From Mucilaginibacter pineti (GTDB lineage: Bacteria > Bacteroidota > Bacteroidia > Sphingobacteriales > Sphingobacteriaceae), in the NCBI RefSeq assembly GCF_900101875.1, contig NZ_FNAI01000001.1, forward strand, positions 620,001-684,000: 64,000 bases of DNA, read 5' to 3'. Below the pieces are notes generated by a model. The model ran no database searches. It worked only from the letters and a program-made list of their open reading frames with translations, and was not told where the DNA came from. Shown piece by piece: positions 15,124-34,968 of this stretch. The position numbers and the translations under genes are program-made. Positions within the stretch are counted from its first letter, which is position 1; the number at the start of each line of letters is the position of its first letter.

Positions 15124-16863
15124 TCATTTTTTACCATCAACAACTAAAAACACCACCGACCGGGGAGGTATTGATACCTTGATACCTCCATTTACCGTAG
15201 CGGAGCTTGCAGCCAATTGCTGATAATTTGCAGGGCCACCCGAAACAGAAGTTGGACCATTCCCGTTGATATATACTTTGCGCGAAAACTCACCATTATC
15301 TGTACCACCGGTTAAGGTGTAATAATAGTATCTCGCACCAGGCGCAAAGTTCTGCATATTAACATTGATTACCTGCGATGAGGTACCTTTGTTAACTATA
15401 ACCGCACCCGCCTGACCTGAGCTAAACGAAGAAGCATAGCTTAATATATCATTACTTCCGGTTACCGATGAACCAACCATTTTATCGCCAAAGTATTTTT
15501 GAAAATAGTACATGTAGTAAAAAGCGGGCCGGGCATTCCATTTTGTCGCATTATCGGGTTCATCGCCAGAGCTAAACATCCCCATATCATCGCCATTGGC
15601 ATAGCCGTTTGCCAGATCCCAGCGGCTCGCCATACCAAATTGATCTTTAATTAATTCGCCAAGCACCATGGTGGCATGAATACCGGCTATGTTTGATACC
15701 ATTTGCTTTGATCCTGTGGCAAATATATTCCACTCCGTTAATGCAATGGGTTTTAACGCTACCCCACCCTGCTGCGTAGTAGTATTCATCCAATCCATCA
15801 TTATTTTTGATTCCGATACTGCCGAATTAAGTATTGTTGCCGCATCCAGATTGGTTTGAGCGGTATAATAGTCATGAACGATATAAAAATCGGGATAATC
15901 GCCCGCCGAGGCAAACAATCCCGAGTTCCAGGTTTTATCTACCACGTTCCACGAGTTTACAGGGTTTGTTTGTATCAACTGGGCACCAATCTTAATAGTT
16001 GCGCCGGTTTCAGTTGCAGCTTTCCGCATCGAATCGGCAAATACTTTAAAATGTTTACCATAAAGTTCACCGGTGATTATTTGAGGCTGGGCATCTTTAT
16101 TATTAGCGAGGTCAATTTTCCAGCCCGCCTGCCAAGGACCATTATTCTCATTTCCAATTTCCCAGTATTTTGTTCGGCCCTTATCATGGCGTACCCATTC
16201 GGCGGCAAGGTGTGCGGCAACCTGATCTGGATGCGCACTTAAACCGTAACGCGCATAGCTGTAGTTTATAGTTATAATACCCTGGCTGTTGGTTTGCTGC
16301 AGTGTATTGTAATAGTTATCCAGCGATAGTGTCCAGCCGGCCGTGTTATTCCCTAACCAGTAATCGGCCGTTGTGCTGTTACCGTCAGAATCGTAAAGTG
16401 TAGCCGGAGCATCAGCGGGGATTTTCCCATCCCAAAAATAAACGCTACTGATATTGCCGCCCGGAAAACGGAGGATATTTGGCGAGAGTGCTTTAAGGTT
16501 ATTAATGAGGGTTGGTTCGGTAACAATTTGTCCCATATAGGGGTTTGTGTTATTCCCAAACAAATACTTTGAAACCTTAGCAAGTACATTACTATAATCA
16601 ACATTAATTGTTACTGTTGCGCTGGCTGCAGGCTTTGTAACATCGGCAGTAGTTGGGGTAGTAAAAGTTTTTGCAGCCCAATCATTTAAGAAAAAGCCTT
16701 GTGTTTTCGCAATCTCAACATCTGTTTGTGGCTTTACAGTAACGGGAATCACCGAAGTATCTTTGCCGCTCGTGGTTGCCTGCTTTTCGGCTTTGCTTTT
16801 TGAGCACGAAAGCATAATTGGTATAAGAAATGTAGATAAACTATATAATCGAAGCATCTTCAT
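15124..16863 (-). CDS. Clan GH-A glycoside hydrolase lipoprotein (GH51-like)
   Basis: The product has 579 residues with the lipoprotein signal MKMLRLYSLSTFLIPIMLSC (Cys20) and a Ser/Thr-rich linker to about residue 80. It then has a TIM-barrel with LRFPGGNISSVYFWDG at 131-146, the acid/base Glu239 in WEIGNENNGPW, and a probable nucleophile Glu377 in ALTEWNIF. A beta-sandwich closes it. The two glutamates at strand ends define a retaining clan GH-A enzyme; the fold and order fit arabinofuranosidase-like GH51 best, but GH30, GH39 or GH79 relatives cannot be excluded. It is last in the SusC-SusD-IPT operon of PUL1. I chose ATG 16863; an upstream in-frame start would spoil the signal peptide. Confidence 0.75.
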   Translation of the reverse strand: MKMLRLYSLSTFLIPIMLSCSKSKAEKQATTSGKDTSVIPVTVKPQTDVEIAKTQGFFLNDWAAKTFTTPTTADVTKPAASATVTINVDYSNVLAKVSKYLFGNNTNPYMGQIVTEPTLINNLKALSPNILRFPGGNISSVYFWDGKIPADAPATLYDSDGNSTTADYWLGNNTAGWTLSLDNYYNTLQQTNSQGIITINYSYARYGLSAHPDQVAAHLAAEWVRHDKGRTKYWEIGNENNGPWQAGWKIDLANNKDAQPQIITGELYGKHFKVFADSMRKAATETGATIKIGAQLIQTNPVNSWNVVDKTWNSGLFASAGDYPDFYIVHDYYTAQTNLDAATILNSAVSESKIMMDWMNTTTQQGGVALKPIALTEWNIFATGSKQMVSNIAGIHATMVLGELIKDQFGMASRWDLANGYANGDDMGMFSSGDEPDNATKWNARPAFYYMYYFQKYFGDKMVGSSVTGSNDILSYASSFSSGQAGAVIVNKGTSSQVINVNMQNFAPGARYYYYTLTGGTDNGEFSRKVYINGNGPTSVSGGPANYQQLAASSATVNGGIKVSIPPRSVVFLVVDGKK

Positions 16864-16937
16864 AATTACTTTGTGTTTAATAAAAAAGGCCACCACCAAT
16901 ACTACGGTGATGGCCGTACCAACTAACTCAATTTAAA

Positions 16938-18152
16938 CTATTTAATTTTAACTACTCTTATATTATCAATGGCTGCTTCAAACAACACAACAGGATCTTT
17001 GGTGTAATTCATAAACATAAACTCCATACCTGTATTTCCACTTGCCCCTGTTAAAGCAGCTATTGATGCAGGCGGCAAGCCGGCAACACCATCCTTTACA
17101 ATAAAGTTCGACAAAGGAATAGTTACTGTCTGCCAACCTTTTGTAGTAAACGGCGTTTTACTACCGTCAGCATTTTTCCAGGGATTATAGGCCGCCATAT
17201 TACTGAAATTATAATTGGCCAAAATATAAATGGTTCCGTTCGACCACGGTTTGGTAACATTTATCTCAAACTTTACCGCATAGCTGTCCAAACTGGCGGC
17301 AATATCTGATGCTGGAACCCATTGCGACGCGTTTAGGTTGATTGAGTGTGGATAGTCATACCAATCAGTTCCGCCCGCTGGCAGGTTGGTTGCCCCCATC
17401 ACATCAAAATAACCTGTATTGCCGGGGTACGAACTATTTGAGGTACCTGAACCCCAGGGGTATGTGTTTATAGCATCAAAATTGCAAAACACACCGCTTA
17501 CAAAATCTTCCACATTATAAACGGTTGTTACTGAACCAGTAGCGGTAGTAACGCTCACCGGCCCGCCTGTTGTGATACCTGATGGCACCGCCAGGGTAAT
17601 TGTGGTACCATCATTTGATGCCGTATAATCTGTAATGGTTTTGCCCGCAAACGTAACGTTCTTAATAAAGAAAAAACTAAAACCGTTGATCTTAACCGAA
17701 TCGCCGACATTTGCACTTTCGTTTGAAATACCAGAAATGGTTGGTGCAGGTGCCACTATAGGGAAAGAAAAAGTAGTTTGCCCATGTATAGTTATGTATT
17801 CGATGGTATTAAGCTTGCTTGACGGAACAGATGGAAAAGCTATAACAGCAGGTATAAGCACAATGGCACTGGTATCAGAAAACCAGGCATCATTAAAGGA
17901 TGCTGCTACCCCATCGATATTGATATGGAGCGCGCCTTTTAAATTTTTACCCGAGATCACTATCCATTGCCCGGTACCCGCGCTGCTCAATAGCGAATCG
18001 CCTGGATGTGCAACATAATTGCGAATGGCGCTGATGGCGGGTATACCCGTTGATGATGATGCATCTTTTTTACAACCCTGTAAAAGAAAAGCTGCCGCTG
18101 CAATTAAGATAATCAACAAACGGCTATTGGTATAATAAACTAATTTTTTCAT
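16938..18152 (-). CDS. IPT/TIG-domain surface glycan-binding lipoprotein
   Basis: This 404-residue lipoprotein (signal MKKLVYYTNSRLLIILIAAAAF, Cys27 in LLQGC) has two IPT/TIG immunoglobulin-like domains at about residues 38-128 and 131-212. Each carries the G-x-x-x-I-x-G pattern (WIVISGKNLKGA; SVKINGFSFFFIKNVTFAG). A C-terminal beta-sandwich at about 220-404 is typical of surface glycan-binding proteins such as SGBP-B of xyloglucan loci. It follows susD after 33 bases and precedes the GH-A enzyme. Its role is to hold polysaccharide at the cell surface for SusC/SusD. The target glycan cannot be read from sequence. Confidence 0.82.
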   Translation of the reverse strand: MKKLVYYTNSRLLIILIAAAAFLLQGCKKDASSSTGIPAISAIRNYVAHPGDSLLSSAGTGQWIVISGKNLKGALHINIDGVAASFNDAWFSDTSAIVLIPAVIAFPSVPSSKLNTIEYITIHGQTTFSFPIVAPAPTISGISNESANVGDSVKINGFSFFFIKNVTFAGKTITDYTASNDGTTITLAVPSGITTGGPVSVTTATGSVTTVYNVEDFVSGVFCNFDAINTYPWGSGTSNSSYPGNTGYFDVMGATNLPAGGTDWYDYPHSINLNASQWVPASDIAASLDSYAVKFEINVTKPWSNGTIYILANYNFSNMAAYNPWKNADGSKTPFTTKGWQTVTIPLSNFIVKDGVAGLPPASIAALTGASGNTGMEFMFMNYTKDPVVLFEAAIDNIRVVKIK

Positions 18153-18185: not shown

Positions 18186-19766
18186 CTATTTATAATATTC
18201 CACCGGTTCTTCCAACAACCTCGGATCCGCGGTTTGATCATTTGCCGGTATAGGAAGTGTAAACGTGGCCACTGTTGCAGGGGTAATAATAAGTCCGTTA
18301 ACTACAGGCGTTTTTACGCCGGTACCGGGGTTATAAGTAAACTGCTGTCTTTGCTGCTTATTAAGTGCATCACTCGCTGCCTGTGGATCATAGTATGAAA
18401 GGCGAACCAAATCAAACCAATACTGGCCTTCAAATGCAAGTTCAACCCTTCTTTCTTTCCGGAGTATTTCGGGGGTGATTGTATTAATCGGATCGACCCC
18501 TGCCCTTGAGCGGATAGCGTTAAAATACTTTACAGCTTCGGCATTTGTGGTAGACGCGTTATTGCCAAGTAATGCTTCAACATAAACCAGATACACATCG
18601 CCCAGGCGCAGCACCGTATTATGTTCAATAGACGACCAAAAATCCATAGTAGGCGAATTATTGTCGGCTGCTGTACCCACAATATGCTTTTTAACGTTTA
18701 CACCCGTAGCCGTATAACCGCCGCCCGCCGCGTTCAACTCGGGATAGTGCTCGCCGGTAAGCATAAAGGTGGCTTTACGACGTATAGAGTCCTGCTCGGA
18801 ATACAAATTAGCCAAATCAATTGTTGGCCCGATGGCGCCGCCATAACCACCACCACCAGTAACAATAGATGCACTTGGTGCAAACTGCGCTTCAATTGCG
18901 TTGCCGTTGCCGTATCCTACACCCGGTGCCCATTGAAAAGCAAACAAAGACTCAGGGTTATCATTAAATTGGGTTTTAAACAGGTTATAATAACTTGGTA
19001 AAAGTGCCAAACCGCTTGTATTACACACTTTACCAGCGTAATAAGCAGCACTATCAAGATCGGCCTGGTTACGGCTGCCGCTTTGGCCTAAGCCTGCCCT
19101 TGTTAAATAAACCTTTGCCAGCAAGCCTTGCGCACTCCATGTGGTTACGCGGCCGGGCTGATCTGTATTGGGTAAATTGGTTGCTGCAAATCTTAAATCG
19201 TTTATTATAAATTTATAAACGTCGGTAAGCTTATTGCGTGGCACCAAAGGGTTGGCTATCAATTTGTCGTTATCCTCAATAATAGGTACTGCTCCCCATA
19301 TTTGTGCTATTAAAAAGTACGAGCTGGCGCGTATAAATCTTAATTCGCCAAGCGCACCGTTTTTATCTGCTACAGCAACACTATCAGGCACTTTGGTATT
19401 AATGGTTTTTATATTGATGTTACAATGCGCCACAATATCAAAAAACGATTTCCACGATTGCTCTATATAAGAGTTTTGCGGTGTAATGGAAAACGTGGTG
19501 AACTGTACCAGATCGCCGTTGTAAGGCTGCAACATGTTGCCGCTCATGATATCGCCAATACCGAGCATCGGAAACTGATTCCAGTAAAACCACGGCTGGG
19601 CATAAAGTGCAGCCGTAGCAAGCCGAAGATCTGACTTGCTTTTGTAAAAATTATCTGTTGTAATGCCGGTTAAAGGAGGCCTGTTCAGGAAATCCTTTTT
19701 ACAACCGCTTATCATGATTATCATAATGATAAGCCATGAATAAATATTTATTTTAGTTAGTTTCAT
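18186..19766 (-). CDS. SusD/RagB-family outer-membrane lipoprotein (PUL1)
   Basis: This 526-residue glycan-binding lipoprotein has the signal MKLTKINIYSWLIIMIIMISGC and lipid-anchor Cys22. It is a tetratricopeptide-like helical protein with the SusD blocks FLNRPPLTGITTDNFYKSKSDL, LGELRFIRASSYFLIAQIWGAVPII, SAQGLLAKVYLTRAG, LRLGDVYLVYVEALLGNN and a C-terminal RRVELAFEGQYWFDLVRL. It forms the lid of the SusC transporter. It starts 9 bases after the susC stop codon. Confidence 0.95.
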   Translation of the reverse strand: MKLTKINIYSWLIIMIIMISGCKKDFLNRPPLTGITTDNFYKSKSDLRLATAALYAQPWFYWNQFPMLGIGDIMSGNMLQPYNGDLVQFTTFSITPQNSYIEQSWKSFFDIVAHCNINIKTINTKVPDSVAVADKNGALGELRFIRASSYFLIAQIWGAVPIIEDNDKLIANPLVPRNKLTDVYKFIINDLRFAATNLPNTDQPGRVTTWSAQGLLAKVYLTRAGLGQSGSRNQADLDSAAYYAGKVCNTSGLALLPSYYNLFKTQFNDNPESLFAFQWAPGVGYGNGNAIEAQFAPSASIVTGGGGYGGAIGPTIDLANLYSEQDSIRRKATFMLTGEHYPELNAAGGGYTATGVNVKKHIVGTAADNNSPTMDFWSSIEHNTVLRLGDVYLVYVEALLGNNASTTNAEAVKYFNAIRSRAGVDPINTITPEILRKERRVELAFEGQYWFDLVRLSYYDPQAASDALNKQQRQQFTYNPGTGVKTPVVNGLIITPATVATFTLPIPANDQTADPRLLEEPVEYYK

Positions 19767-19775
19767 AATTCAAGC

Positions 19776-22700
19776 TTATTTATTTAATGATACATTGAGG
19801 CCAACGGTGTATACACGCGGTTGCGCGTAATAGCCATTATCAATACCGGCGGCCAATGGGTTCCAAGATCCAATTTCGGGGTCGTACCCGCTATACTTGG
19901 TTATGGTGAATACATTGGTTACATTAACATAAACACGTAGCGATTTGAGGTGTAATTTTGACAACAAACCATCAGAAAGGTTATAGCCTAAAGCAATGCT
20001 TTTACATTTCAGGAATGAGCCGCTTTCAATATATTTATCAGAAAAACGTTGATTATCATTTCCGCTGCTTTGGCTTATCCTGGTTATTTTTGTGTCGGGA
20101 TTGGTGATATACACATTATTGATATCCGCTGCTGAACCAGCTGGGTCTATCAAACCTATTTTGGCGTAGTTAAGCACACTTGGGAAGTAGCCAAAATTTT
20201 GATTAGGGTTATTAGCATTAACACTTAGCTGGTTATAAATTTTATTACCCTGCTCGCCAACCATAAAAACAGTAAGGTCGATATTTTTATAGCTGAAAGC
20301 GTTATTGATACCGTACTGAAATATTGGTAATGGCGAACCTAAAAAGGTTTGATCATTGGCATCTATTTTACCATCATGGTTCAGATCCTTAAAAATAACA
20401 TCACCTACCCAAACCCCGCCAGATCCGTTTGTAATTGGTATTGGCCCGCTGCCATTTTGAGGCAACGCCGGATATTTGGTAAAGTCGGCGGCATTTTTAT
20501 AAATACCCAAAACCTGGTAACCATAAAAATCGCCGATGGAACGTCCTACAACAGTTTTACTAACCTGGCCATAAATGGCCGGCGTACCGGTTGCCAAAGC
20601 CAATACCTTGTTTTTGTTTTGTGAGAAGGTAAGATTTGTTCTCCAGTTAAAATCCTTTGATTTTACGTTTAATGTTGATAAGGCAAATTCAAAACCTTTA
20701 TTGCTAACCGAACCAATATTTACAAATGGCGCCTGTATTGCGCCTGGAGAATAACCGCCCGCGGCAAACGTACCTGAATATAGCGGCTCGGTAAGGCTTA
20801 ACAATAAGTTAGATGTTTTGCGATAATAGGCATCGGCCGTAAGTTCTATCCTTCTGTTTAAAATACTTACATCAATACCAATATTGTATGATTTGGTTGT
20901 TTCCCATTTAATATCCGGATTGCCCGTTGTGGCCGTAAGCTGCGAATTGCCCGATAGACCTGTTGCTACGGTATTTAATGTAGATCCATACGCATACTCT
21001 GCAATGTTTTGGTTGTTAACTAAGCCATAACCTAACCTTAATTTCAAGTCATTAATGAGTTTTGAATCTTTCAGAAAATCCTCATGGCTTATTTTCCACG
21101 CTAATGCTCCCGAATAAGTGGTGTTCCACCTGTTGGCAGGTGCAAATTTCGACGAGCCATCATGACGTACGGTGGCAGTTAACAAGTATTTATCGTTGTA
21201 TGTAAAGTTTGCACGACCAAAATAGGCTTCAAGCGCCCCATCGCCTTTGCTGCCGCTATTAGTTGCGGTTGTTGCATCGCCACTGTTTATAGCCTGTACG
21301 TTATTGCTGGCAAAATTTGTACGGGTGGCCGAAACCCGGTTGTTGGTAAGCAACTGCGATTCGTGTCCGGCCATTACGCTTACGTAATATTTTTGGCCAA
21401 ACATATGCTGATAAGTTAAGTAGTTGGAAAGTGAATAATAGAAATTTTGCCCGCTTGTAAATGTTCCAGTGTTAGTATTGTGAGAATAAGCACCCATAAC
21501 ATACGTAGGATTAAAATAATCCTCGGTGGCAAAATCAAAATTTCCGGACGCTTCGTTACGCAGGCTGATATCCCGGGTAAACTGAATTTCTGCATATACG
21601 TTACCAAGGGCCTGGTACCTACTTTTTAAATCCTTAACTATAGTTGCCAGGGCGAAAGGATTGGCTCCTACTGCTCCGTATATGTTTGGATCGTTACCAC
21701 CCCAGGTACCATCAGGGTTTATTACATTTACATCGGGCGTTTGGTTTAATGCCTGCAAAATAACCCCGGTATTGGTTGTTCCAACATTTTCTGCAACGTG
21801 CCCAAGCTCTAAACTGGTACCTACCTTTAACCAATCGGTTGTTTTGTTGTCGAGATTTATTTTTACCGAGGTCCTTTTAAAATCCGAGCCCAAGGCAATA
21901 CCTTGTTGTGAAAAATAGGTACCAGATAAGTAGTATTTTGTTCTGGCATCGCCCCCGCTTACAGCCACATTGTGGTTTTGCATAGGTGCCGTTCTATATA
22001 AGGCTTTCTGCCAGTTGGTACCAAGACCAAGATATTGCGGATTTGCAAACTGCGGCCTCAAATCATACCCAATTATAACCGATTTTTCGTTCATGAACGT
22101 AGCGTACTGTCGCAGGTCCATTACATCATAATATTTAGGTAACGACTGCTGTCCGTAATAGCCGTCATAACTAATAACAGGTGCACCAGATGTCCCTCTC
22201 TTTGTAGTGATGATAATTACACCGTTTGATGCCTGCGAACCATAAATAGCGGTAGCCGAAGCATCTTTTAGTATATCGATAGAAGCTATCTCCGAAGGAT
22301 TAATGCTTGACAAAGGATTGGTACCATTACCGGGGATAGGCGACTGCTGATTTGGCGGAATCTGGATGCCATCGATAACATAGAGTGGCGATGAGCCTGA
22401 GAAACCGCCGATGCCCCTTATCTGTACATTTACATCGCCGCCTGGCTGTCCGGATACCTGTTGTATCACAACTCCCGGAACTTTACCTTGCAAGGCCTGA
22501 TCGACAGTGGTAGGCTGGGTTCTTACAAGATCACTTGCGCGAACGGAAGATACCGACCCTGTAAGATCGCCTCTTTTTCCTGTTCCGTACCCTATTACCA
22601 CAACTTCGTCAAGACCATTTGTTGATGGCTTTAACTGTGCATTTATGGTTGCGCTTTGGCCTACATAAGTTTGTAAAGTGGTGTAGCCTAAAAAGCTAAA

Positions 22701-22937
22701 CACCAATACGTCACCAGCTTTAGCATTAATAGTATAAGTACCATCGGTACCCGAAACCGTTCCTGTTGATGTATCCTTTATTTTAATACTTACGCCGGGC
22801 AACGGCTTTGCATCGTCGGTACCGGTTACTTTTCCGCTAACCTTAATGGTTTGCGCATAGCCCGAAAAGCATAATAACATTCCGGCTATAAATAACAAAG
22901 TACCACACTTCATTTTTTTTTGTAAATTTCTTTCCAT
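19776..22937 (-). CDS. SusC/RagA-family TonB-linked outer-membrane transporter (PUL1)
   Basis: The 1053-residue product has a signal peptide ending CFSGYAQ, a CarboxypepD_reg-like domain (IKVSGKVTGTDDAKPLPGVS to AQLKPS, about residues 30-108), TonB box DEVVVIGYG, and plug domain with VQIRGIGGFSGSSPLYVIDG and ATAIYGSQASNGVIIITTK, the SusC signatures. The barrel ends VYTVGLNVSLNK. It imports oligosaccharides bound by SusD, powered by TonB. There is no STN domain, consistent with regulation by the hybrid sensor and not by anti-sigma signalling. Its predicted leader is about 300 bases long and contains five AACCAAT repeats; a conserved dyad lies further upstream. Confidence 0.96.
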   Translation of the reverse strand: MERNLQKKMKCGTLLFIAGMLLCFSGYAQTIKVSGKVTGTDDAKPLPGVSIKIKDTSTGTVSGTDGTYTINAKAGDVLVFSFLGYTTLQTYVGQSATINAQLKPSTNGLDEVVVIGYGTGKRGDLTGSVSSVRASDLVRTQPTTVDQALQGKVPGVVIQQVSGQPGGDVNVQIRGIGGFSGSSPLYVIDGIQIPPNQQSPIPGNGTNPLSSINPSEIASIDILKDASATAIYGSQASNGVIIITTKRGTSGAPVISYDGYYGQQSLPKYYDVMDLRQYATFMNEKSVIIGYDLRPQFANPQYLGLGTNWQKALYRTAPMQNHNVAVSGGDARTKYYLSGTYFSQQGIALGSDFKRTSVKINLDNKTTDWLKVGTSLELGHVAENVGTTNTGVILQALNQTPDVNVINPDGTWGGNDPNIYGAVGANPFALATIVKDLKSRYQALGNVYAEIQFTRDISLRNEASGNFDFATEDYFNPTYVMGAYSHNTNTGTFTSGQNFYYSLSNYLTYQHMFGQKYYVSVMAGHESQLLTNNRVSATRTNFASNNVQAINSGDATTATNSGSKGDGALEAYFGRANFTYNDKYLLTATVRHDGSSKFAPANRWNTTYSGALAWKISHEDFLKDSKLINDLKLRLGYGLVNNQNIAEYAYGSTLNTVATGLSGNSQLTATTGNPDIKWETTKSYNIGIDVSILNRRIELTADAYYRKTSNLLLSLTEPLYSGTFAAGGYSPGAIQAPFVNIGSVSNKGFEFALSTLNVKSKDFNWRTNLTFSQNKNKVLALATGTPAIYGQVSKTVVGRSIGDFYGYQVLGIYKNAADFTKYPALPQNGSGPIPITNGSGGVWVGDVIFKDLNHDGKIDANDQTFLGSPLPIFQYGINNAFSYKNIDLTVFMVGEQGNKIYNQLSVNANNPNQNFGYFPSVLNYAKIGLIDPAGSAADINNVYITNPDTKITRISQSSGNDNQRFSDKYIESGSFLKCKSIALGYNLSDGLLSKLHLKSLRVYVNVTNVFTITKYSGYDPEIGSWNPLAAGIDNGYYAQPRVYTVGLNVSLNK

Positions 22938-22969
22938 CTTCTATAGAAATTTTAATAATTGGGTAATTG

Positions 22970-23058
22970 ATTGGTTCATAATTATTGGTTTAATTGGTTT
23001 ATAGGTTTGTGTTATTTCATAATTGATTAATTGGTTTTAGGAAATTATATGATTGGTT
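22970..23058 (-). repeat. Five AACCAAT repeats in the susC leader
   Basis: On the coding strand AACCAAT occurs at plus coordinates 22970-22976, 22984-22990, 22993-22999, 23030-23036 and 23052-23058, all within 90 bases and ending 33 bases before the susC ATG. Single copies also precede GH31 (25796-25802 and 25933-25939) and the PUL2 susC (31802-31808). They could be a regulator or RNA-binding site, or simple leader composition. Confidence 0.5.
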
Positions 23059-23248: not shown

Positions 23249-23314
23249 TGAAGGTATAAATGTTGATTTTACCCGGGTGTAACATTTGTAATTATTGATG
23301 TAACTAATGTTTAC
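23249..23314 (-). promoter_or_regulatory. PUL1 regulatory element, susC copy
   Basis: The dyad ACATTTGTAAT (23282-23292), spacer TATTGAT, and GTAACTAATGT (23300-23310) match the GH31 copy exactly 2700 bases to the right, with 29 of 34 bases identical over 23281-23314. A second shared block TGAAGGTATAA (23249-23259) reads TTATACCTTCA on the coding strand and resembles a weak -7 element. If so, +1 is near 23245 and the dyad is centred near -51. Confidence 0.6.
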
Positions 23315-23382
23315 ACGCAGGTAAAGCATTAATTTAAAGCAACTTATATTTAATTACCTACACGTTTATACATAACAAAAGG

Positions 23383-25794
23383 CTACAAATTCACTTTTAG
23401 GGCCTTTCCTGTATATACTATGGTTTTATCAAATTTATCAACTGGTAACGGTCCGCTGCCGTGCGAGCCATTGACAATCACTATGTTGAAAGTGCGCTGC
23501 GTTAACATGCCAGGAAAGCTCCCTTTTGTAGTGGTAATGCTAAGCTGGCGATGTGCGTCGTTCCAGTTCAATGTAAAAGTGGCATACTTTCCATTTTCGT
23601 AGTTATAGTTGTCATTTTCATCATCGTAATACACAAACCCACCGTTCGCGCCGGGGTAAATTCTAAGTTCGATGGTGTTATCCGGCTTTTCGGTGGCATA
23701 TTGCATTACCGGCCCCATCGGGATGATGGCACCCGCTTTAACGTATAACGGCATTGTTTCAATTGGTGCATTAGCTGCAATGCTTTGCCCTCCGTTGTAG
23801 CGTTGCCCGGTCCAGAAATCATACCATTTTGTACTTTTAGGTAGATACACATCACGCGTGGTTTTCCCTGCTGAGGCGTTTGCCCCCGTGTACAATTGTT
23901 CGGTTACCGGGTTAACCATAAGCGCAGGCCCAAACATATATTGATCCGGAATATTATAAACTTTTTCATCGTTCCTGAAATCAAATGCAAGTGAACGCAT
24001 TATGGTATAGTTATTTAAGGTTACACGGCCTGCCAGCGAGTATATGTATGGCAGCAAGCGATAGCGCAACTGATCATATTTTAGCAGGATGGCTTTAGTT
24101 TTATCATCCCAATTATTGGAAAACAACGCCCGTTCTCCCTTGCCGTGTATCCTGAATATGGGCGAAAACGCACCAAACTGAAACCAGCGGGTAAACAGCT
24201 CCCGGTTCTCTGGCTTCGACCAAGTTGGTGCCGCCCAGTTAAGGTGATAGCCGCCTATGTCTGATGTCCAGTATGGGATACCGGAAGCACAAGCATTAAT
24301 CCCCTGGGGTACCTGCCTTTTAAATGCGTCAAACGTGCAGGAAATATCAGATGACCACAAGGTAGCCGCATTACGCTGCTCACCGGCAAACGACTGCCTG
24401 ATCAGGAAAAAAGCGCGCTTTCCAGGAATATCACGTCGCCAGCCTTCATAAATACCTTTTGAATGCTGTAACGAATAGGTGTTGAAATAATCTATCCCCT
24501 TACCTATAAAAAAATTACTTTGGCGGCGGGCATCAAGCAGTAACCCGTTATCGGGCTCACATTGGTCAACCCACCATGCATCCCATCCGTAGCGTTTAAC
24601 AATACTATCGCGGGCCTGTTGCCAGTAAAGCGCCCTTGCCGCCGGGTTGTGGGCATCATAATAAGTATCAAAGGTGTGTGTAACTACATTATCCCAGGTT
24701 ATATCTGTTAAGCCGCCCATTTTTTGCAAGGCATTAAAATTAGGTGTTCCCTTACCTAAAACTGGCCAAATAGAAATCATACCATGTATATTGGCTTTGT
24801 GCAACTCATCAACCATGGCTTTAGGATTTGGATAGCGTGCGGGGTTCATGATATGTGAACCTATGGGAAAAGGATCCCAGTAATACCAATCCTGCACAAT
24901 AACATCAACAGGGATATTGTTGTTGCGATAGTTATTTTTAACTGTGATTATCTCATCCTGGCTCAGATACCTATCCTGCGACTGGAACAATCCGAAAGCC
25001 CATTTAGCAAACATAGGGGCTTTACCTGTAGCCGTACGATAAAGGTCAATGATGTGGTCAAAATTGGGTCCGTAAAAAAAATAGTAATCAACCTGCCTGC
25101 CGCTTTCAGATACGTATTTGAATTTGGTATTATTATCCTCCGCGCCATAAAAGTTAGAAGCTGCATAGTTATCCCACATTAACCCATACCCTTTTGTGGA
25201 TAGTAATACTGGGATAGCACCTGTAAGATATTTTATGGCCATATCCTGGTTACGCCCTTTGTAATTAATAGATAACGAATCAAGCGGATGACAGCCCAAA
25301 CCAAATAGACCTTCATCTGCCGGAGAGTTAAACTGGGTTGTACAGTTATAGGTATTTATGCCGGCAATAGTGGCCGGCTGCATAGCTTTATTAGTTGTTT
25401 TATCTTCGGATAAAATAACCGTTCCATCTTTTGTTAAATAGCTAATGGCATTGGTTGCTTTATCAACCAATATATTCAACCTTGCAGTAGTTATAGTTAT
25501 GCTATTGCCCTCGTCCGACACGGTAAATTCCGAAGGTTGGCTCCATTTATTATTTACAACCAGCGACTCATTTTTTGAAAAGGCATCAAATATGGTGTAC
25601 TTAACTTCAATTATATCGGCACTGCACACCTTTACTTTGAGTATCCCCCTATCTAAACTAAATAAAACTCCATCTTTTTCTTTTGTAAAACTACGTACAC
25701 GGGCCAACGCTTTTTGTGAGTGTATGCAACAAGCAAGCAAAACTAAAAGGGTAAATATTTTAGCAGATTTTAAGTAAAGGTTATTGTATAACAT
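23383..25794 (-). CDS. GH31-family alpha-glycosidase (alpha-xylosidase or alpha-glucosidase)
   Basis: This 803-residue secreted enzyme has a signal peptide (FTLLVLLACCIHSQKALA), N-terminal beta-sandwich, and a TIM-barrel with WAFGLFQSQDRYLSQDEI at 266-282. The catalytic nucleophile is Asp410 in WWVDQCEPD and the probable acid/base is Asp483 in LWSSDI. IPYWTSDIGGY and the FRIHGKGERALF substrate region follow, and the protein ends in C-terminal beta domains with PLYVKAGAIIPMGPV. Retaining GH31 enzymes remove alpha-linked xylose or glucose from non-reducing ends. With an SGBP-like neighbour, alpha-xylosidase action on xyloglucan-type oligosaccharides is plausible but not proven. It has its own promoter element upstream, shared with susC. 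Confidence 0.9.
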   Translation of the reverse strand: MLYNNLYLKSAKIFTLLVLLACCIHSQKALARVRSFTKEKDGVLFSLDRGILKVKVCSADIIEVKYTIFDAFSKNESLVVNNKWSQPSEFTVSDEGNSITITTARLNILVDKATNAISYLTKDGTVILSEDKTTNKAMQPATIAGINTYNCTTQFNSPADEGLFGLGCHPLDSLSINYKGRNQDMAIKYLTGAIPVLLSTKGYGLMWDNYAASNFYGAEDNNTKFKYVSESGRQVDYYFFYGPNFDHIIDLYRTATGKAPMFAKWAFGLFQSQDRYLSQDEIITVKNNYRNNNIPVDVIVQDWYYWDPFPIGSHIMNPARYPNPKAMVDELHKANIHGMISIWPVLGKGTPNFNALQKMGGLTDITWDNVVTHTFDTYYDAHNPAARALYWQQARDSIVKRYGWDAWWVDQCEPDNGLLLDARRQSNFFIGKGIDYFNTYSLQHSKGIYEGWRRDIPGKRAFFLIRQSFAGEQRNAATLWSSDISCTFDAFKRQVPQGINACASGIPYWTSDIGGYHLNWAAPTWSKPENRELFTRWFQFGAFSPIFRIHGKGERALFSNNWDDKTKAILLKYDQLRYRLLPYIYSLAGRVTLNNYTIMRSLAFDFRNDEKVYNIPDQYMFGPALMVNPVTEQLYTGANASAGKTTRDVYLPKSTKWYDFWTGQRYNGGQSIAANAPIETMPLYVKAGAIIPMGPVMQYATEKPDNTIELRIYPGANGGFVYYDDENDNYNYENGKYATFTLNWNDAHRQLSITTTKGSFPGMLTQRTFNIVIVNGSHGSGPLPVDKFDKTIVYTGKALKVNL

Positions 25795-25948
25795 AATTGG
25801 TTTTTATATCTTCTTTATTGAATTTAATTGCCATCCCCTTTCTAAAACAACACAATGATGCAAGCTGTTAGCTTTATTGGGATACCGGTTATGGCATCCG
25901 TTTTACGGCTATTAAATTATCCGGGAATGATAATTGGTTTATATAAAG

Positions 25949-26014
25949 TGAAGGTATAAGCCAACAGGCCAGCACAAGGTGACATTTGTAACTAAGGATG
26001 TAACAAATGTTTAC
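25949..26014 (-). promoter_or_regulatory. PUL1 regulatory element, GH31 copy
   Basis: ACATTTGTAAC (25982-25992), spacer TAAGGAT, and GTAACAAATGT (26000-26010) form an inverted repeat with 10 of 11 arm bases paired. The block TGAAGGTATAA (25949-25959) is identical to, and at the same distance as, the one in the susC copy. The dyad centre lies about 200 bases upstream of the GH31 start. The likely binder is the AraC domain of the adjacent hybrid sensor. Confidence 0.6.
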
Positions 26015-26068
26015 GCACTCACAAATAACTGATATACAGATTCATTTAAATGAAAAACATATAAATGA

Positions 26069-29000
26069 TCAGGAAATATTTATTTTTTCTTGGTGTAGCC
26101 CGCGTTTTTGAAGCACAAATTCAGATGGCAGCATATTAAACTCGTCCTTAAATGATTTGGCAAAATATTGCGGTGTGTTAAAACCCACCTCGTATGATAC
26201 CTCGGCGATGTTCATGCGGCTGTATTCCAATAAATGGGCGGCTTTTCTCAAGCGCAAAAGCCTTATATATTCTACCGGAGATTTACCGGTAATAGTTAGT
26301 AGTTTTTTGTAAAGTGTATTGCGATTCATACCCATATGTCTGCTCAATTCATTTACCGATAGCGCGGGGTTCAGCATATTTTCGCCAATGTAGGTTACTA
26401 TTTCTTTTACAAACTTTTCATCAACAGAGGCAATGGCCGGCTCGTTTATCTGTATATCCAGTTGCCGGGTGTAGGTTTTTTTGAACGTGGCCTGCAGATT
26501 CAGCAGGTTCTTTATTTTAGAGATCAATATCTCGAAGTTAAAAGGCTTTGTCATGTAATCATTAGCACCAATTTCCAGGCCTTTCAATTCCTCTTCTTCA
26601 CCGATAAGGGCCGTAAGTAATATGATGGGGATATGCGATGTACGACTGTCATTTTTTATTTTTCTGCAAAGCTCCTTCCCGTTCATTTCGGGCATACTGA
26701 TGTCGCTTACCATAATATCCGGATGCAGGGCCAGTGCTTTCTGCCAGCCCTCCTTTCCGTTTGATGCCTCTATGATGTGAAACATGTCCTTCATATTATC
26801 TTTGAGGTAAAACCTAAAATCGTCATTATCCTCTACTAAAAGTAAAGTAGGTTTCTTACCGCTCTTCTGCACTTTAAATGGATCCACATTTTCGGTATGA
26901 GGTTCATTTTCTGTGTCATCTAAAGATATTTCCAGATCATCTAATGCGGGTACCGGCAAATGGACAATAAAGCAGCTACCATGTTCCGGTTCGCTTTCCA
27001 CACTAATTTTGCCCTGGTGCATGTAAACAAATTCCTTAGTAATTGCCAAGCCAATACCACTCCCTTGATTAAGCATTGAGCCGGGGAGGTTATTTTGAAA
27101 AAAACGCTCGAAAATACACTCCTGCTTATCTTTAGGGATACCTATCCCGGTATCCATAACTTTAATTTCAATAAATTTAAGTTCATTGGCACCGTCGCAG
27201 GCCATCATGTTGAGCAGTACACTTACGTGTCCGCCTGCAGGAGTAAACTTAAACGCGTTTGAAAGTAAATTGAACAGTATCCGTTCTATTTTATCATGAT
27301 CGAAACTCGTTTTAAAAGTGTCCACATCGGTATCAAATAAAAACCCAATGCCTTTTTGGTCGGCAATATCTGTAAACGACAGACTGGCCTCCTTAATAAA
27401 ATTAACAATGTCGCCGGGCTTTGTATGCAATTTCAGTTCATGAACCTCCATCTTCCTAAAATCAAGCAGTTGGTTAACGAGGTTGAGCAAGCGCCGGGCA
27501 TTTTTACTGATCATATTGAGCTGCAGCTTTTGATCCGCATTTGCAGCGTGATGGAGCATTTTATCAACCGGGGCCATAATCAGCGACAACGGTGTTCTGA
27601 ACTCATGGCTTACATTGGTTAAAAACTTGGTTTTGAGCTTGTCTATTTCATGCATTCGCTCAATTTCCTGTCTTTCCTGTTCTATAATAAGCTGTATTTC
27701 TTTTTTTTCCTGCTCGGCAATAAATTGTTTTCTGATTTTTTGAATACCCCGGTGGCGAATGAACAGTAACCCGCCTGCAACTATCAGTACATAAAAAGCA
27801 TACGCCAATGACGATTTCCAGAACGGGGGATTTACTTTAATATTAAGAGAAATTACATTGTTATCCCACAACCCATCGGCATTAGAAGCACGTACTTTAA
27901 ATACATAGTTACCTCCATCAAGATTTGTATAAGTAGCTTTACGAACATTATTATAGGCAGTAAGCCAGCTTTTATCAAAGCCCTCCAGCATATATTGGTA
28001 CTTTACTTTATTGGGGTTAAAAAAGTTAAGCGCCGCAAATTCAATGGTGAACACATTCTCGGCGTGGTTTAGGGAGATGGAATGTGTTGCCGATATAGCT
28101 TTTGAGAGTATTACATGCCCATTGATTGCTTCATTTGCTGCTACACTATTATTGAGTAGCTGCAAATCTGTAAATATAAGCTTAGGTTTATTTGTGTTTG
28201 TTTGGATATTTTGGGGATCAAAAATATTAAACCCATGCCCTCCTCCAAATATCAGTTCGCCTTTTTGAGTTTTCAGGGCCGCGTTTACATTAAATTCCCT
28301 GGCTTGTAAACCGTCACTTTCATCAAAATTTTTAAAGCGAAAACTGTATTTTTTGTTAACTGGTTTAAGCGCTATACGGCAAAGGCCGCCCGATGTGCTA
28401 AGCCACATCATGTGGTCGTTATCTTCCAGGATATTCAAAATTGAATTATCGGGTAACCCATCCTCTTTTACCAGCGACGTAAAGCGTTTTGTTTTTGTGT
28501 TTAATATGCTAAGGCCATCGCGTGTTGCTATCCACATAAGGCCGCGACTATCCTGGGTGATGCTGTTCACATTGTCTGCTATAAGACTATTTGATGTCCG
28601 CGTATCATGCACGTAATGAATAACACGACCGGATTGTTTTAGGATAACATTTATGCCCATATAGCCGCCAACCCATATATTACCGTCCTTATCCTCAAAA
28701 ATTGAGGATATATAAGGCGACTGAATTTGAGCCTGGGTAAATGGACGTGAAAAAAATTTCGTGATGGGATCGAAAAGATTGAGTCCTCCGGCAAAGGTAC
28801 CTACCCATAAACGGTGCGAGGAATCCTCAATGATACTATAGATACGATCATCAGACACAGACGTTGCCACGTTATCATCATGGCGATAATGCGTAAAGGT
28901 TTTTCCATCAAAGCCATCCATCCCGCCAAAATAAGTGCCTATCCACAATTTTTGGTTATGATCTATACACAGGCTAACGATGATATCATTGCTCAAACTA

Positions 29001-30241
29001 TTGTTATTTCGCACATTATGCTTGTACTGGGTATACTTGCCGGTTTTTCGGTTAAAATAAATTAAGCCGCCTCCGTTAGTGCCTATCCACAGGTTGCCTT
29101 CTTTATCCTCAACAAATTTATCAACGTCTTCAAAACTCAAACTGCCTGGATCTGACGCAAAGTGTCTGTATAGCGGAAACCTGATGATGTTTTTATGATA
29201 ATAGCTTATTCCCTCTTTAAAGGTGCCGGCCCACATAATCCCTGCGTTATCCTTATAAAGTATTACACTATTTTGCACTAAAGATTTGGTGTCGTCCTCG
29301 CGATTAAGCAGGTAATTGACCTTGAAATTTTTCTTATTAAGCACATTGATACCGCCGTGATCAGTACCTATCCATATAAGCCCGTCATCTGCCTGTACAA
29401 TATTGTTAACTATATTGGTGTTTAATCCGGTTTCTGTGGTTTCTTTATCGATATATTTAATAGTGTTTGCCTCCGGGTCAAGATAATATAAGCCCATATT
29501 TATAGTAGGCGCGTAAAACCAGATATCATTATCACTATCAACGGTAATGGCGTAAACTCTTTTTTTATTGCTATTATTTGCTGGTACAATTAATTTTCGA
29601 TAGCTTATTTTATTCAGCTTACTATTCATCATTTCTATAACACCGGTATCGTACGCAAACCATAAGTTACCCTTGTTGTCTTCGGCAAAATCAACCACGT
29701 TGTTGGCATATAATAACACAGGCGAATTATTACTGTGGGTATAATGATAAATTTGTTGACTGGTTTCATTATAACGATATATTCCCGAGCCATCATACAG
29801 GAACCAAAAGTCCCCCCTACTGTCCTTTTTTATTTTGCGTACGGCTACACCTGGCAGCTTTAATGATTTAAGTACCGGTGCTATATTACTGTTAAATTGC
29901 TCTGTTTGGGGGTTATAAATGCAAAATCCGTTACGGGTTTCTATCCAAAGGTTATGACTGGGCCCTTCAAAAATATTTACAATATAATCATCATTAATAG
30001 AGGTACTATCGTTCACATTGTGTTTAAATACTTTAAAAGTATAGCCGTCATACCGGTTAAGACCAGATAAGGTACCAAACCACATAAAACCTTGCGCATC
30101 CTTATAAATACAGTTTACCTGATTATGTGACAAGCCATTGCTTATATCCAGATGCGAAAATTGATATTTATTTTCTTGCGCAAACGCTGAAGTATAAATA
30201 CCAAAAAGTAAAATAAAAGCAAGCAATACGTTTAAACGCAT
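26069..30241 (-). CDS. Hybrid two-component system sensor/regulator (HTCS)
   Basis: This 1390-residue one-protein signalling system has a signal peptide (residues 1-21, ending SAFAQ), then a periplasmic sensor of many Reg_prop propeller repeats (pattern D-x-x-G-x-x-W-x-G-T, e.g. DAQGFMWFGTLSGLNRYDG) to about 730. A Y_Y_Y domain follows (about 735-800), one membrane span near 805-825, HisKA with His879 in SHEFRTPLS, HATPase (DTGIGIP, GSGIGLAI), receiver domain with Asp1180 in MVSDISMPEMNG, and a C-terminal AraC helix-turn-helix (about 1290-1385). Such proteins bind a glycan breakdown product outside and activate their polysaccharide locus. It neighbours GH31 and diverges from the ROK gene. All key residues are intact. 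Confidence 0.96.
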   Translation of the reverse strand: MRLNVLLAFILLFGIYTSAFAQENKYQFSHLDISNGLSHNQVNCIYKDAQGFMWFGTLSGLNRYDGYTFKVFKHNVNDSTSINDDYIVNIFEGPSHNLWIETRNGFCIYNPQTEQFNSNIAPVLKSLKLPGVAVRKIKKDSRGDFWFLYDGSGIYRYNETSQQIYHYTHSNNSPVLLYANNVVDFAEDNKGNLWFAYDTGVIEMMNSKLNKISYRKLIVPANNSNKKRVYAITVDSDNDIWFYAPTINMGLYYLDPEANTIKYIDKETTETGLNTNIVNNIVQADDGLIWIGTDHGGINVLNKKNFKVNYLLNREDDTKSLVQNSVILYKDNAGIMWAGTFKEGISYYHKNIIRFPLYRHFASDPGSLSFEDVDKFVEDKEGNLWIGTNGGGLIYFNRKTGKYTQYKHNVRNNNSLSNDIIVSLCIDHNQKLWIGTYFGGMDGFDGKTFTHYRHDDNVATSVSDDRIYSIIEDSSHRLWVGTFAGGLNLFDPITKFFSRPFTQAQIQSPYISSIFEDKDGNIWVGGYMGINVILKQSGRVIHYVHDTRTSNSLIADNVNSITQDSRGLMWIATRDGLSILNTKTKRFTSLVKEDGLPDNSILNILEDNDHMMWLSTSGGLCRIALKPVNKKYSFRFKNFDESDGLQAREFNVNAALKTQKGELIFGGGHGFNIFDPQNIQTNTNKPKLIFTDLQLLNNSVAANEAINGHVILSKAISATHSISLNHAENVFTIEFAALNFFNPNKVKYQYMLEGFDKSWLTAYNNVRKATYTNLDGGNYVFKVRASNADGLWDNNVISLNIKVNPPFWKSSLAYAFYVLIVAGGLLFIRHRGIQKIRKQFIAEQEKKEIQLIIEQERQEIERMHEIDKLKTKFLTNVSHEFRTPLSLIMAPVDKMLHHAANADQKLQLNMISKNARRLLNLVNQLLDFRKMEVHELKLHTKPGDIVNFIKEASLSFTDIADQKGIGFLFDTDVDTFKTSFDHDKIERILFNLLSNAFKFTPAGGHVSVLLNMMACDGANELKFIEIKVMDTGIGIPKDKQECIFERFFQNNLPGSMLNQGSGIGLAITKEFVYMHQGKISVESEPEHGSCFIVHLPVPALDDLEISLDDTENEPHTENVDPFKVQKSGKKPTLLLVEDNDDFRFYLKDNMKDMFHIIEASNGKEGWQKALALHPDIMVSDISMPEMNGKELCRKIKNDSRTSHIPIILLTALIGEEEELKGLEIGANDYMTKPFNFEILISKIKNLLNLQATFKKTYTRQLDIQINEPAIASVDEKFVKEIVTYIGENMLNPALSVNELSRHMGMNRNTLYKKLLTITGKSPVEYIRLLRLRKAAHLLEYSRMNIAEVSYEVGFNTPQYFAKSFKDEFNMLPSEFVLQKRGLHQEKINIS

Positions 30242-30604: not shown

Positions 30605-31792
30605 ATGACTGTTATAAAGAAACATCACTTACTACGGAAGGATCTTATCAAGCATTTTTATTATAACAAACGATTAACGTTAACAGAATTAAGCAAACTC
30701 ACGCATAAAAGCTTGCCTTTAATTACTACAACGGTTAATAGCTTGATAGAAGATGGATATGTAATGGAGCATGAACTTGCTCCATCTACCGGGGGACGAC
30801 GCGCTTTAACTTTTTTGCTGAATAGCCAAAAACAACGCTATGTGGTAGCTGTAGCGGTTGACCAAATGGTTACCCAGGTTGTAATTTACGACTTATTGAA
30901 TAAGGTTAAAATGGCACCCGAGGCAACGGAACTTCTTTTGGTGAATGAGCCCGTGTTGGTTGACAAATTTACCGCGTTCTTAAAAGATTATATATCCCGC
31001 TCGGAGATACCAATTGCGCAAATATTAGGAGTTGGCATTGGGATGCCGGGCTTCGTAAATGCAGAGCAAGGTGTAAATCATAGTTTTTTTAAATCAACGG
31101 GCGATGTAAGCCTGAAGAAATATTTGACCCGCGAGCTTGGGGTGCCCGTTTTTATAGATAACGACTCGAGCGTTATAGCCCTGGCCGAATTAAAATTTGG
31201 TACAGGTAAAAATCTGAAGGATGTTTTGGTGGTGAATGTAGGTTGGGGTATAGGATTAGGCATGATAGTAAATGGCGCCCTTTTCAGGGGGCACAGCGGT
31301 TATGCGGGTGAGTTTAGCCACATTCCGCTTTCACAAAGCAATAAAATTTGTTCATGCGGAAAAAGAGGTTGCCTGGAGGTAGATACCTCATTGGTTGTGA
31401 TGGTTGAGCGCGCAAAGGCACAGATGGATACGGGCGGCAGCTCAAGTATGGAACTTAGTTATACTAAAAACGGCGATTTACCTGTTGACCAATTCCTTCA
31501 TGCTGCTAAATCGGGCGATCCACTGGCGGTATCAATATTGTCAGATGCTGCATTTTTAATAGGTAAAGGAATGTCGACTTTGATTCATATCATGAATCCT
31601 AAACTTATTGTTTTGAGTGGCCGTGGCGCTATAGCAGGTAAAATATTCATGGCGCCAATACAACAAGCAATTAACGAATTCTGTATCCCCTGGCTTGCCG
31701 AACAAACGGAAATACAAATTTCTACGCTGGCACCCGAAGCCGAACTCCTTGGTGCCGCCACTTTAGTAATAGAGAATTGCAACTTTAATTAA
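30605..31792 (+). CDS. ROK-family transcriptional regulator
   Basis: This 395-residue NagC/XylR-type repressor has an N-terminal winged helix at about residues 10-65 (LTELSKLTHKSLPLITTTVNSLIEDGYV; STGGRR wing), then a ROK sugar-kinase-like domain. The zinc site is complete: His239 in GEFSHIPL with Cys249, Cys251 and Cys256 in CSCGKRGCLE. The catalytic-type Asp187 is present (FIDNDSS), but its neighbourhood differs from kinases, in line with a sugar-sensing repressor. It lies 56 bases before the disrupted susC gene and probably controls that susCD pair or the locus as a whole. The ligand is unknown. Confidence 0.92.
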   Translation: MTVIKKHHLLRKDLIKHFYYNKRLTLTELSKLTHKSLPLITTTVNSLIEDGYVMEHELAPSTGGRRALTFLLNSQKQRYVVAVAVDQMVTQVVIYDLLNKVKMAPEATELLLVNEPVLVDKFTAFLKDYISRSEIPIAQILGVGIGMPGFVNAEQGVNHSFFKSTGDVSLKKYLTRELGVPVFIDNDSSVIALAELKFGTGKNLKDVLVVNVGWGIGLGMIVNGALFRGHSGYAGEFSHIPLSQSNKICSCGKRGCLEVDTSLVVMVERAKAQMDTGGSSSMELSYTKNGDLPVDQFLHAAKSGDPLAVSILSDAAFLIGKGMSTLIHIMNPKLIVLSGRGAIAGKIFMAPIQQAINEFCIPWLAEQTEIQISTLAPEAELLGAATLVIENCNFN

Positions 31793-31848: not shown

Positions 31849-34800
31849 ATGAAACAATTGTACTTTAGGTGTTTCGCGTTATTGTTCTTCAGTTTGATTA
31901 CAATAACTGCCTATGCACAAAAAACAGTTTCCGGGACGGTAACTGAAAAATCCGGATTGCCAGTTCCCGGAGTAAGCGTATCGGAAAAAGGCACCAGTAA
32001 CGGCACTGCCACCGGAACCGACGGAAAGTTTAAGCTTACCGTTAAACCGGGCGCAGTGCTAACCTTTGCCTTTATCGGCTTAAAAACAAAAGAAGTAACT
32101 GTTGGCGATGAAACAAATTTAACAGTTGTTTTAGAAAGCAGTGAAAGCGCCCTCACCGAAGTTGTAGTTACGGCTTTAGGTATTAAAAGAGAAAAGAAAT
32201 CGTTAGGATACGCCGTACAGGAAGTAAAGGGTGAAACCTTATCTGACGCCAAGGAACCCAACCTGGTGAATGCGCTTTCGGGCAAAGTTGCCGGTTTACA
32301 GATCACCCGCTCGGGTAACGGCCCCGGTGGTTCATCAAAGATTACTTTGAGAGGAAACAATTCATTTAGACCAGGGGCTGCAAATCAACCACTTATTGTG
32401 GTTGATGGGATACCATTAGATAACTTTACAGGAGCCTCAAACAACGATTATTACAACCCATCATTGGATATGGGTAACGGCCTATCAGATATAAACGCAG
32501 AAGACATTGAAAGTATGAGTGTTTTGAAAGGTGCCGCTGCTGCTGCACTTTACGGCTCAAGAGCTGGTAATGGCGCAATCCTAATCACTACAAAAACAGG
32601 TAAAGCCCAAAAAGGCTTAGGTATTACCATATCATCATCAATAGGTATTGAAAGTATTTTTGCAAGGCCATAAATACAAAACGTATTTGGCCAGGGCGAT
32701 AACAATACTTACAGTGCAACATCAGCAGACAGTTGGGGACCAAAAGCAGACGGCCAGACAGTTAAAAAATATGATGGTACTAATGCCCCTTTAAGAACAT
32801 TTGATAACATTGCCAACTACTTTCCTCATGGCCTTACGTCTGATCAAAATATATCTTTTCAACAGCAATACAAGTCAACCTCTGTTTATTCATCGTACAG
32901 CCGTTTAGATGACAAAAGCTTAATTCCGGGAGCAAAGCTCATCCGCAATAACCTAATGGCCAGAACGGTAAGCAAATTTGGAGATGATAAGTGGACGCTT
33001 GATACCAAGGTTCAATATATCAATTCAACTGCACTTAACCGTCCGCAGGGTGGTTCAAACACAAGCAACAACTTTTATGCTTTATCATTACTACCAACCT
33101 CTATTGACGTAAGGGACTTTAAAAACCGTACCGACAACAATGGCATCATGACATGGTGGCGCCTTGGAAGCGAATTAAACCCGTACTGGGCATCTAAATA
33201 TAACCTTAACCAGGATATAAGGGACAGGCTTTTATTAAATGCTTCATTAAAATATCAATTTACCAGTTGGTTAAATGCGGAATTAAAGGGCGGTGCTGAT
33301 ACATACACCACCAATACCGAAAGCAAAACCTACGCGGGTTCTAACACCACCACAACAGGTTCATACGGTATTGGAAAAAGCACATTCACCGAAACCAACT
33401 ACAGCGGTTTACTTACAGCTAAAAAAGATAACCTTTTTGGTAAATTAGGTGGCGTGGCAACTTTTGGTGGTAATTTAATGAACCGTCAAAGCGCTTCATT
33501 AAGTGCCAGTGCAAATCCATTACAGGTGCCGAACCTTTTTTCGGTAAATAATAGTTCAACCAACCCTTCAGTTAGTCAAAGCCAATCACGCAAAGACATA
33601 TATTCAGTTTATGGATCACTTGGTTTAAATTACGACGGATACTTATTTGTTGATGGTACGTTCAGAAATGACTGGTCTTCGGCATTAAGCGCAGCTACCC
33701 GTTCGTATTTTTACCCTTCATTAAGTGGCTCATTTGTATTTACCGAATTGATGAGTAGAAGCGGAAGCACCTTACCATCATGGTTAACATACGGTAAAAT
33801 AAGAGGATCCTTTGCATCTGTTGGTAATGATATGGACCCATACCAGCTATACAATACTTATACTATTGGTAAAGATCCACTTGGTAACACTACTGCAGGC
33901 CGTGGCGATGTGCTTTATGATGCAAATGTTAGAAGTGAACAAATAAAATCATATGAAGCAGGTTTGGAAATGCGCTTTTTTAACAGCCGCGTAGGATTTG
34001 ATGCGGCAGTTTACAAATCTAATGCTACAAATCAATTGATCAATTTGCCATTGGATAACTTAAGCGGTTATTCTTCTAAAATAATTAACGCCGGTAATAT
34101 TCAAAATAAAGGCTTTGAATTGATGGTTGACGGCAAAATCTTCCAAAATCCTGAAGGATTCAACTGGACTACCATGTTGAATTTCTCTATCAACAGAAAC
34201 AAGATCGTATCAATTGCTCCTGATGTGAACACCTATGGATTGGGTGGTTTTGATGACATTTCCATTGTTGCAGAAACCGGCAAACTTTATGGAGAAATTT
34301 ATGGCTCCCGTTTTTTAAGAGTTAAAGATGCAAGCAGTCCGTATAATGGTCAAATGATCCTTACCAGTACAGGTTTGCCACAAACAGATCCTGACAATGC
34401 AAGATTAGGTAATCAGCAAGCTTCAAGCTTATTAGGCTTTACCAACTCATTCGCATACAAAGGATTTGACCTTTCATTCCTAATCGACGCTCGTTTCGGA
34501 GGCCAGATCTTCTCTGGTACTATAGCTAATATGGAGCAATACGGTACATCAAATAAAACCGTAGTAGGTGGCGCAAGAGCAGACATGCTTGTTGATGGAG
34601 TTGTGCTTAACACTACTACAAATCAATACGAAAAAAATACAACAAAAACATCTGTACAAAACTACTGGACCGTAGTTGCGGGCCATAGCAATATCGGAAT
34701 AACCGAGGCAAACCTTTATGATGCATCTAACGTACGTATTAGAAACGTACAATTAGGTTATAACCTCCCTAAAAAGTTTTTAGCAGGAACAGGTATTCAA

Positions 34801-34968
34801 AGAGCAAAAATTGGTGTATCGGCTAATAATGTATGGTTAATATCAAGTCACATGAATGGAATGGATCCTGAGTCTGTTTATGCCACAGGAACCAATGCTA
34901 CAGGCTTTGAAAGCGGGAGCACGCCAACTACACGTACGTTTTTATTTAATTTAACAATTGGCTTCTAA
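31849..34968 (+). pseudogene. SusC/RagA-family transporter interrupted by one in-frame TAA (PUL2)
   Basis: Read as one frame, 31849-34968 encodes a complete SusC of 1039 codons: signal peptide ending TAYAQ, CarboxypepD_reg domain (TVSGTVTEKSGLPVPGVSV), TonB box EVVVTALG, plug (ITLRGNNSFRPG, LYGSRAGNGAILITTKTG) and full barrel ending FLFNLTIGF. Codon 275, TAA at 32671-32673, interrupts it between FARP and IQNVFGQG. The other 94 codons up to the next ATG (32956) and all later codons are open and show normal SusC sequence. A one-base change from AAA, CAA or GAA would explain it. The options are a recent nonsense mutation, a sequencing error or readthrough. The downstream SusD is intact. Confidence 0.88.

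Follow-up and report, generated by a model that had tools for sequence, protein, structure and literature searches.

Two predicted activator operators with a rigid promoter layout beside a hybrid two-component regulator in Mucilaginibacter pineti

Background

AraC-type DNA-binding domains typically bind in tandem. At the araBAD promoter of Escherichia coli, the AraC half-sites I1 and I2 lie in tandem 21 bp apart, the proximal one adjoins the promoter, and activation is achieved by monomers seated side by side. The 21-bp half-site layout of I1-I2 is like that of the putative operators examined in this paper, whereas the sequences are unrelated; additionally, AraC is a soluble protein that uses sigma-70 promoters, unlike the system described here. 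For the hybrid two-component systems (HTCSs) of Bacteroides thetaiotaomicron, 16 motifs have been predicted, all of them direct repeats with a mean distance of 21 bp (Ravcheev et al. 2013, PMC3878776). HTCS motifs are therefore less scarce than was implied by a preliminary description of the present DNA, which held that few HTCS operators have been defined; a literature search found no mapped HTCS operators with repeats. Response-regulator fragments of the HTCSs BT4124 and BT4663 bind susCD promoters in gel shifts, the SHIP motif marks receiver-inhibited HTCSs, and no mapping of the exact half-sites was found in the available sections of the same paper (PMC11253607). For the HTCS BT1754, chromatin precipitation recovered DNA from the 3' region of the gene that encodes it (PMC3404733).

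Two similar elements are present in the window, the whole stretch of 64,000 nucleotides of Mucilaginibacter pineti DNA that was analysed. As in the operators predicted for B. thetaiotaomicron, the half-sites of the window are about 21 bp apart, the susC-type units concerned lie beside the HTCS gene, and the regulon is local (PMC3878776). The B. thetaiotaomicron motifs are clear direct repeats, whereas the core of the proximal half-site in the window looks inverted; the window also differs in its constant spacing of 25 bp to a -7 box, in genus and in sequence. One window site lies past the HTCS gene, the same position as the BT1754 site (PMC3404733). An AraC-type DNA-binding domain and a SHIP motif in the receiver are common to the window HTCS, BT4124 and BT4663; the susCD promoter target of the latter two was established by gel shift, whereas the window HTCS is known from sequence alone (PMC11253607).

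Results

All genes of the cluster lie on the minus strand, in the order HTCS, GH31, susC, susD, SGBP-B-type protein and a 591-aa protein. The HTCS (26069-30241), a membrane-bound sensor and the candidate binder of both operators, carries a periplasmic propeller sensor, Y_Y_Y, HisKA, HATPase, receiver and AraC-type DNA-binding domains on one chain, the last of these encoded at 26072-26476, and a SHIP motif can be read in its receiver. GH31 is encoded at 23383-25794. The other unit is headed by a susC-like TonB-dependent transporter gene (19776-22937; Plug, TonB barrel and CarbopepD_reg_2 domains), followed by a susD-like gene (18186-19766), the gene of an SGBP-B-type surface glycan-binding protein with a xyloglucan-binding domain (16938-18152) and, as the last gene, that of the 591-aa protein (15124-16899). 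The latter is weakly similar to GH51 arabinofuranosidases (E 5e-5), has no Pfam match at the usual cut-off, and has a counterpart of about 70% identity in the cluster of some relatives.

The xyloglucan locus of B. ovatus has an HTCS regulator, as does the window cluster, and GH31 alpha-xylosidase and SGBP-B relatives are common to both. The closest solved relatives of the window GH31 are alpha-xylosidases (7kmp and BoGH31A, 5jou), the SGBP-B is similar to B. ovatus BACOVA_02650 among other proteins, and the clusters of relatives additionally hold GH74-like, GH29, GH42, GH39 and GH3 genes; the cluster therefore looks xyloglucan-type, an assignment made by sequence similarity. Unlike the B. ovatus locus, the window cluster has no endo-xyloglucanase (GH5_4, GH9 or GH74) among its scanned genes, so that no membership among xyloglucan utilization loci is claimed. 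In the five relatives a GH74-like (BNR/Sortilin) gene stands between HTCS and GH31 (L049:12079-14322); it is missing from the window at 25795-26068.

Several other features of this region were also observed. In a second cluster (31849-34968), the susC-like gene seems to be split into ORFs of 274 aa, with the plug domain, and 670 aa, and may thus be broken or frameshifted. The 5' untranslated region of susC (22940-23040) is crowded with AACCAATTA-type repeats, and among fetched HTCS loci, which are partly related to each other, 37 of 52 susC starts have CCAATNA in the 120 nt before them, as against 1 of 52 in an intragenic control stretch. Such repeats are possibly a translation or RNA-binding signal.

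As for the two elements, 29-bp dyads are located at 23282-23310 and 25982-26010, exactly 2700 bp apart, and each element holds one copy of TGAAGGTATAA (23249-23259 and 25949-25959). Over an aligned stretch of 34 bp, 29 bases are identical. On re-reading of the sequence, these values were exactly as given in the preliminary description. Its duplicated 66-bp element was confirmed and refined: an operator of about 35 bp and a box are conserved, and the spacer between them is not, with 45 of 66 bases identical over the whole 66-mer. Over the 12 sites of six genomes described below, the operator holds 1.81 bits of information per column and the box 1.83, compared to 0.78 in the spacer and 0.60-0.82 outside. 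The best 34-mer match of one intergenic region to the other is the 29 already mentioned, whereas 246 comparisons of the same size with the rest of the window reached at most 24. With up to 3 mismatches, the dyad pattern matched only the two elements in the window (shuffle mean 0.02), and these were also the only matches in the whole 7.2-Mb genome.

Element 1 lies between GH31 and susC and element 2 between HTCS and GH31, so that each transcription unit has one, as had been noted before. Each sits at the promoter of a PUL unit that neighbours the HTCS gene. Read on the coding (minus) strand, the susC operator consists of a distal half-site at 23303-23310 (ACATTAGT, extended TAAACATTAGTTACA), which is kept in all six orthologous susC promoters, and a proximal half-site 21 bp away at 23282-23289 (ACAAATGT, extended ATTACAAATGTTAC); the -7-like box TACCTTCA follows 25 bp from the operator (23249-23256). 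In the GH31 promoter, the corresponding features are ACATTTGT at 26003-26010, ACAAATGT at 25982-25989 and TACCTTCA at 25949-25956.

The distribution of the element was determined in 149 Mucilaginibacter genomes, using the extended 35-bp pattern and a reversed-pattern control. The pattern was found in six genomes, with exactly two sites in each on the same contig, and the control gave none. A census with the last 135 residues of the HTCS, its DNA-binding domain, found identities of at least 74% in exactly these six genomes and of at most 60% in all others. Element and cognate HTCS therefore occur together in 6 of 6 genomes as against 0 of 143, a count that is not independent of linkage because all cases come from one syntenic locus. 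This co-occurrence supports the regulatory reading of the preliminary description and its choice of the adjacent HTCS as candidate binder. The search of orthologous loci that it had suggested located the element at the HTCS and susC flanks in all six genomes: one site follows closely on the HTCS stop (about 40-160 bp 3' of it in the orthologs) and the other upstream of susC. In one genome (G022) the susC is merely 36% identical, yet the site upstream is retained. In all five relatives the first gene after the HTCS-side site is the GH74-like gene, which precedes GH31, and in L051 the second site is separated from GH31 by a GH29 gene. It can be seen from the G022 transporter and the GH74-like first gene that the element stays with the HTCS and not with a given target gene.

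The anatomy of the promoters is rigid. All 12 sites read TAAACATTwGTTACAT-N6-TTACAAATGT on the coding strand, then 25 bp, then TAyCTTCA, with no variation in the 25-bp spacing. The -7 element of Bacteroidota has the consensus TAnnTTTG, as quoted in PMC7366714; TAyCTTCA agrees with TAnnTT and departs from the consensus at the last two bases, which makes TACCTTCA a poor match. At other HTCS loci, most boxes read TAnnTTTA. No TTTG was apparent at -33 in the promoters of the 12 sites. If the box is placed near -12 to -5, the operator would occupy about -66 to -38, which would suit an activator compensating for the missing -33 contact. The constant spacing thus gives comparative support to two earlier suggestions, a weak -7 box and an activator position near -51. 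In the available HTCS literature, no statement of a fixed operator-to-box spacing was found. A further block, TTGTAwATCA(gTT), at 26027-26039 and at orthologous sites, precedes the operator by 20-29 bp and is kept in most of the 12 sites. TTGTAwATCA has 87 matches genome-wide, compared to 23 for the reversed control, and as an additional PUL element these matches showed no clear link to PULs.

The preliminary description took each element for a dyad. Its matching cores and their spacing are real: two ACAwwwGT cores lie 21 bp apart, core to core, in all 12 sites. Since the half-site itself is near-palindromic, both tandem and inverted readings fit the window alone; the flanks and the relatives indicate a tandem orientation and the two central bases an inverted one. 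If the operator were a true inverted repeat, the HTCS or another dimeric regulator would bind ACATTTGTAAC-N7-GTAACAAATGT with two-fold symmetry. Consistent with this, ACAAATGT, the proximal core, is exactly what reverse complementation of ACATTTGT gives, the arms of the GH31 copy match at 10 of 11 bases, all 12 orthologous sites have AA at the centre of the proximal half-site, and the proximal core fits the distal one better inverted than tandem. That preference, however, hangs on two central bases of a near-palindrome, whereas a TTAC-like tail with an invariant C is found on the same side of both units. Tandem binding is also what has been predicted for HTCSs in the B. thetaiotaomicron study (PMC3878776).

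Promoters of other HTCSs also bear on the orientation. A set of 60 loci from the genus was fetched, almost all belonging to other HTCSs, and the direct repeats in their intergenic DNA are most frequent at distances of 21-22 bp (27 and 25, versus about 7 in shuffles). A symmetric half-site scan, which is neutral between tandem and inverted arrangements, was then considered: among pairs 21 bp apart, a TAnnTT box occurs 15 times at offset 23 past the 12-bp unit (25 past the core) and about once at other offsets. The 20 promoters of this kind (21- or 22-bp spacing), a count not wholly unselected since a few loci had been picked for an earlier pattern match nearby, have TT at the distal centre in 19 cases; at the proximal centre, 14 have TT and 1 has AA. 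Tandem TAACATTTGT repeats are the form at HTCS-relative promoters with the 21-bp and 25-bp geometry. The window element has exactly the geometry of those 20 promoters and carries the rarer proximal variant, and for this reason tandem binding is favoured. A strict tandem TAACATTTGT composite had no match in the genome of M. pineti at up to 3 mismatches, so that the arrangement seen in relatives is not repeated there. A true inverted-repeat operator is considered unlikely; the dyad is probably two near-palindromic half-sites 21 bp apart, whose inverted symmetry would be incidental.

A different regulator could also read the sites, for example a global Crp-like regulator, a free AraC protein or the ROK protein encoded at 30605-31792. 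The ROK protein has a helix-turn-helix domain and is encoded adjacent to the HTCS, but the orthologous element-bearing loci showed no homolog of it next to the HTCS, which disfavours it as the binder. The presence of just two sites per genome speaks against a global regulator; moreover, the half-site spacing fits HTCS motifs and the same grammar occurs at other HTCS loci, so this alternative is quite improbable. It is still harder to see the elements as RNA hairpins or terminators at the 3' ends of HTCS and GH31. A same-strand stop codon does precede each copy by 59-73 bp and formation of a weak hairpin is feasible, but the folding is unremarkable (z -1.9 and -1.2), five of the six susC-type sites have an A-A mismatch in the putative stem that no other change compensates, and no T run follows. 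The distance to the upstream stop varies from about 40 to 360 bp while that to the box is constant at 25. The RNA explanation is rejected as very improbable. Finally, a dispersed repeat or mobile-element remnant, the case named in the preliminary description as one that would refute it, might be suspected from two similar copies 2.7 kb apart, but is rejected with near certainty, since the 7.2-Mb genome has only two copies, six genomes have them in the same two places, and little is conserved beyond operator and box.

The layout was also searched for in 400 genomes of the order as a composite of half-sites, spacing and box, which gave 29 matches compared to 2 in controls. Of 20 loci inspected, 16 showed clear HTCS, susC or GH31 similarity within about 1.5 kb (4 of them being the window or its orthologs), and one more gave a weak match. 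In another genus of the family (L203, L208, L209 and L210), a variant operator, ACATTTGTTACCTATTTAGTAACATATAT, is located in a divergent intergenic region beside a susC of 53-69% identity, with the box pointing away from susC toward the other gene. Close variants are also found before a GH35-like gene in G018 and before a gene of similar length in G149; in G116, a close variant and the same TACCTTCA box precede a 77%-identical GH31, and the best HTCS there is 54% identical. The DNA-binding-domain census found no HTCS ortholog of the window type in these three genomes, suggesting that other HTCSs may read similar sites and that half-site sequences are partly common to several HTCS groups.

Discussion

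Taken together, each element is very probably an activator operator of the adjacent HTCS (26069-30241), a prediction drawn from comparative sequence evidence. The half-site would consist of the near-palindromic core ACAwwwGT followed by TTAC, and two copies 21 bp apart, or two helical turns, would let a pair of AraC-type DNA-binding domains sit next to each other on the same DNA face. Since 25 bp separate the end of the proximal half-site from a weak -7 box (TACCTTCA versus TAnnTTTG), the dimer would span about -38 to -66 of the predicted transcript and could substitute for the missing -33 element. The periplasmic sensor would bind an oligosaccharide, probably from xyloglucan, and the phosphorylated HTCS would then bind both sites, so that the susC-susD-SGBP-15124 unit and GH31 would be switched on together.

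The regulator, both operators and both promoters are cleanly paired in six genomes. The operator has been kept beside the HTCS while the susC transporter was exchanged, which suggests that the regulatory wiring outlasts transporter swaps. What the present pair adds is the rigid promoter layout, which could help to read HTCS operators from sequence. There is about an even chance that it is general for HTCS promoters in Mucilaginibacter, and possibly throughout the family, in the form of a half-site pair spaced by 21 (or 22) bp with a TAnnTT box at a constant 25 bp past the core, an inverted-looking half-site being tolerated. The fixed spacing to the -7 box may serve as a filter for the operators of other HTCSs. 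HTCSs govern a large share of glycan use in Bacteroidota, and for most of them operators are undefined; if such a rigid grammar holds, the cognate operators of unstudied HTCSs would be readable directly from sequence.
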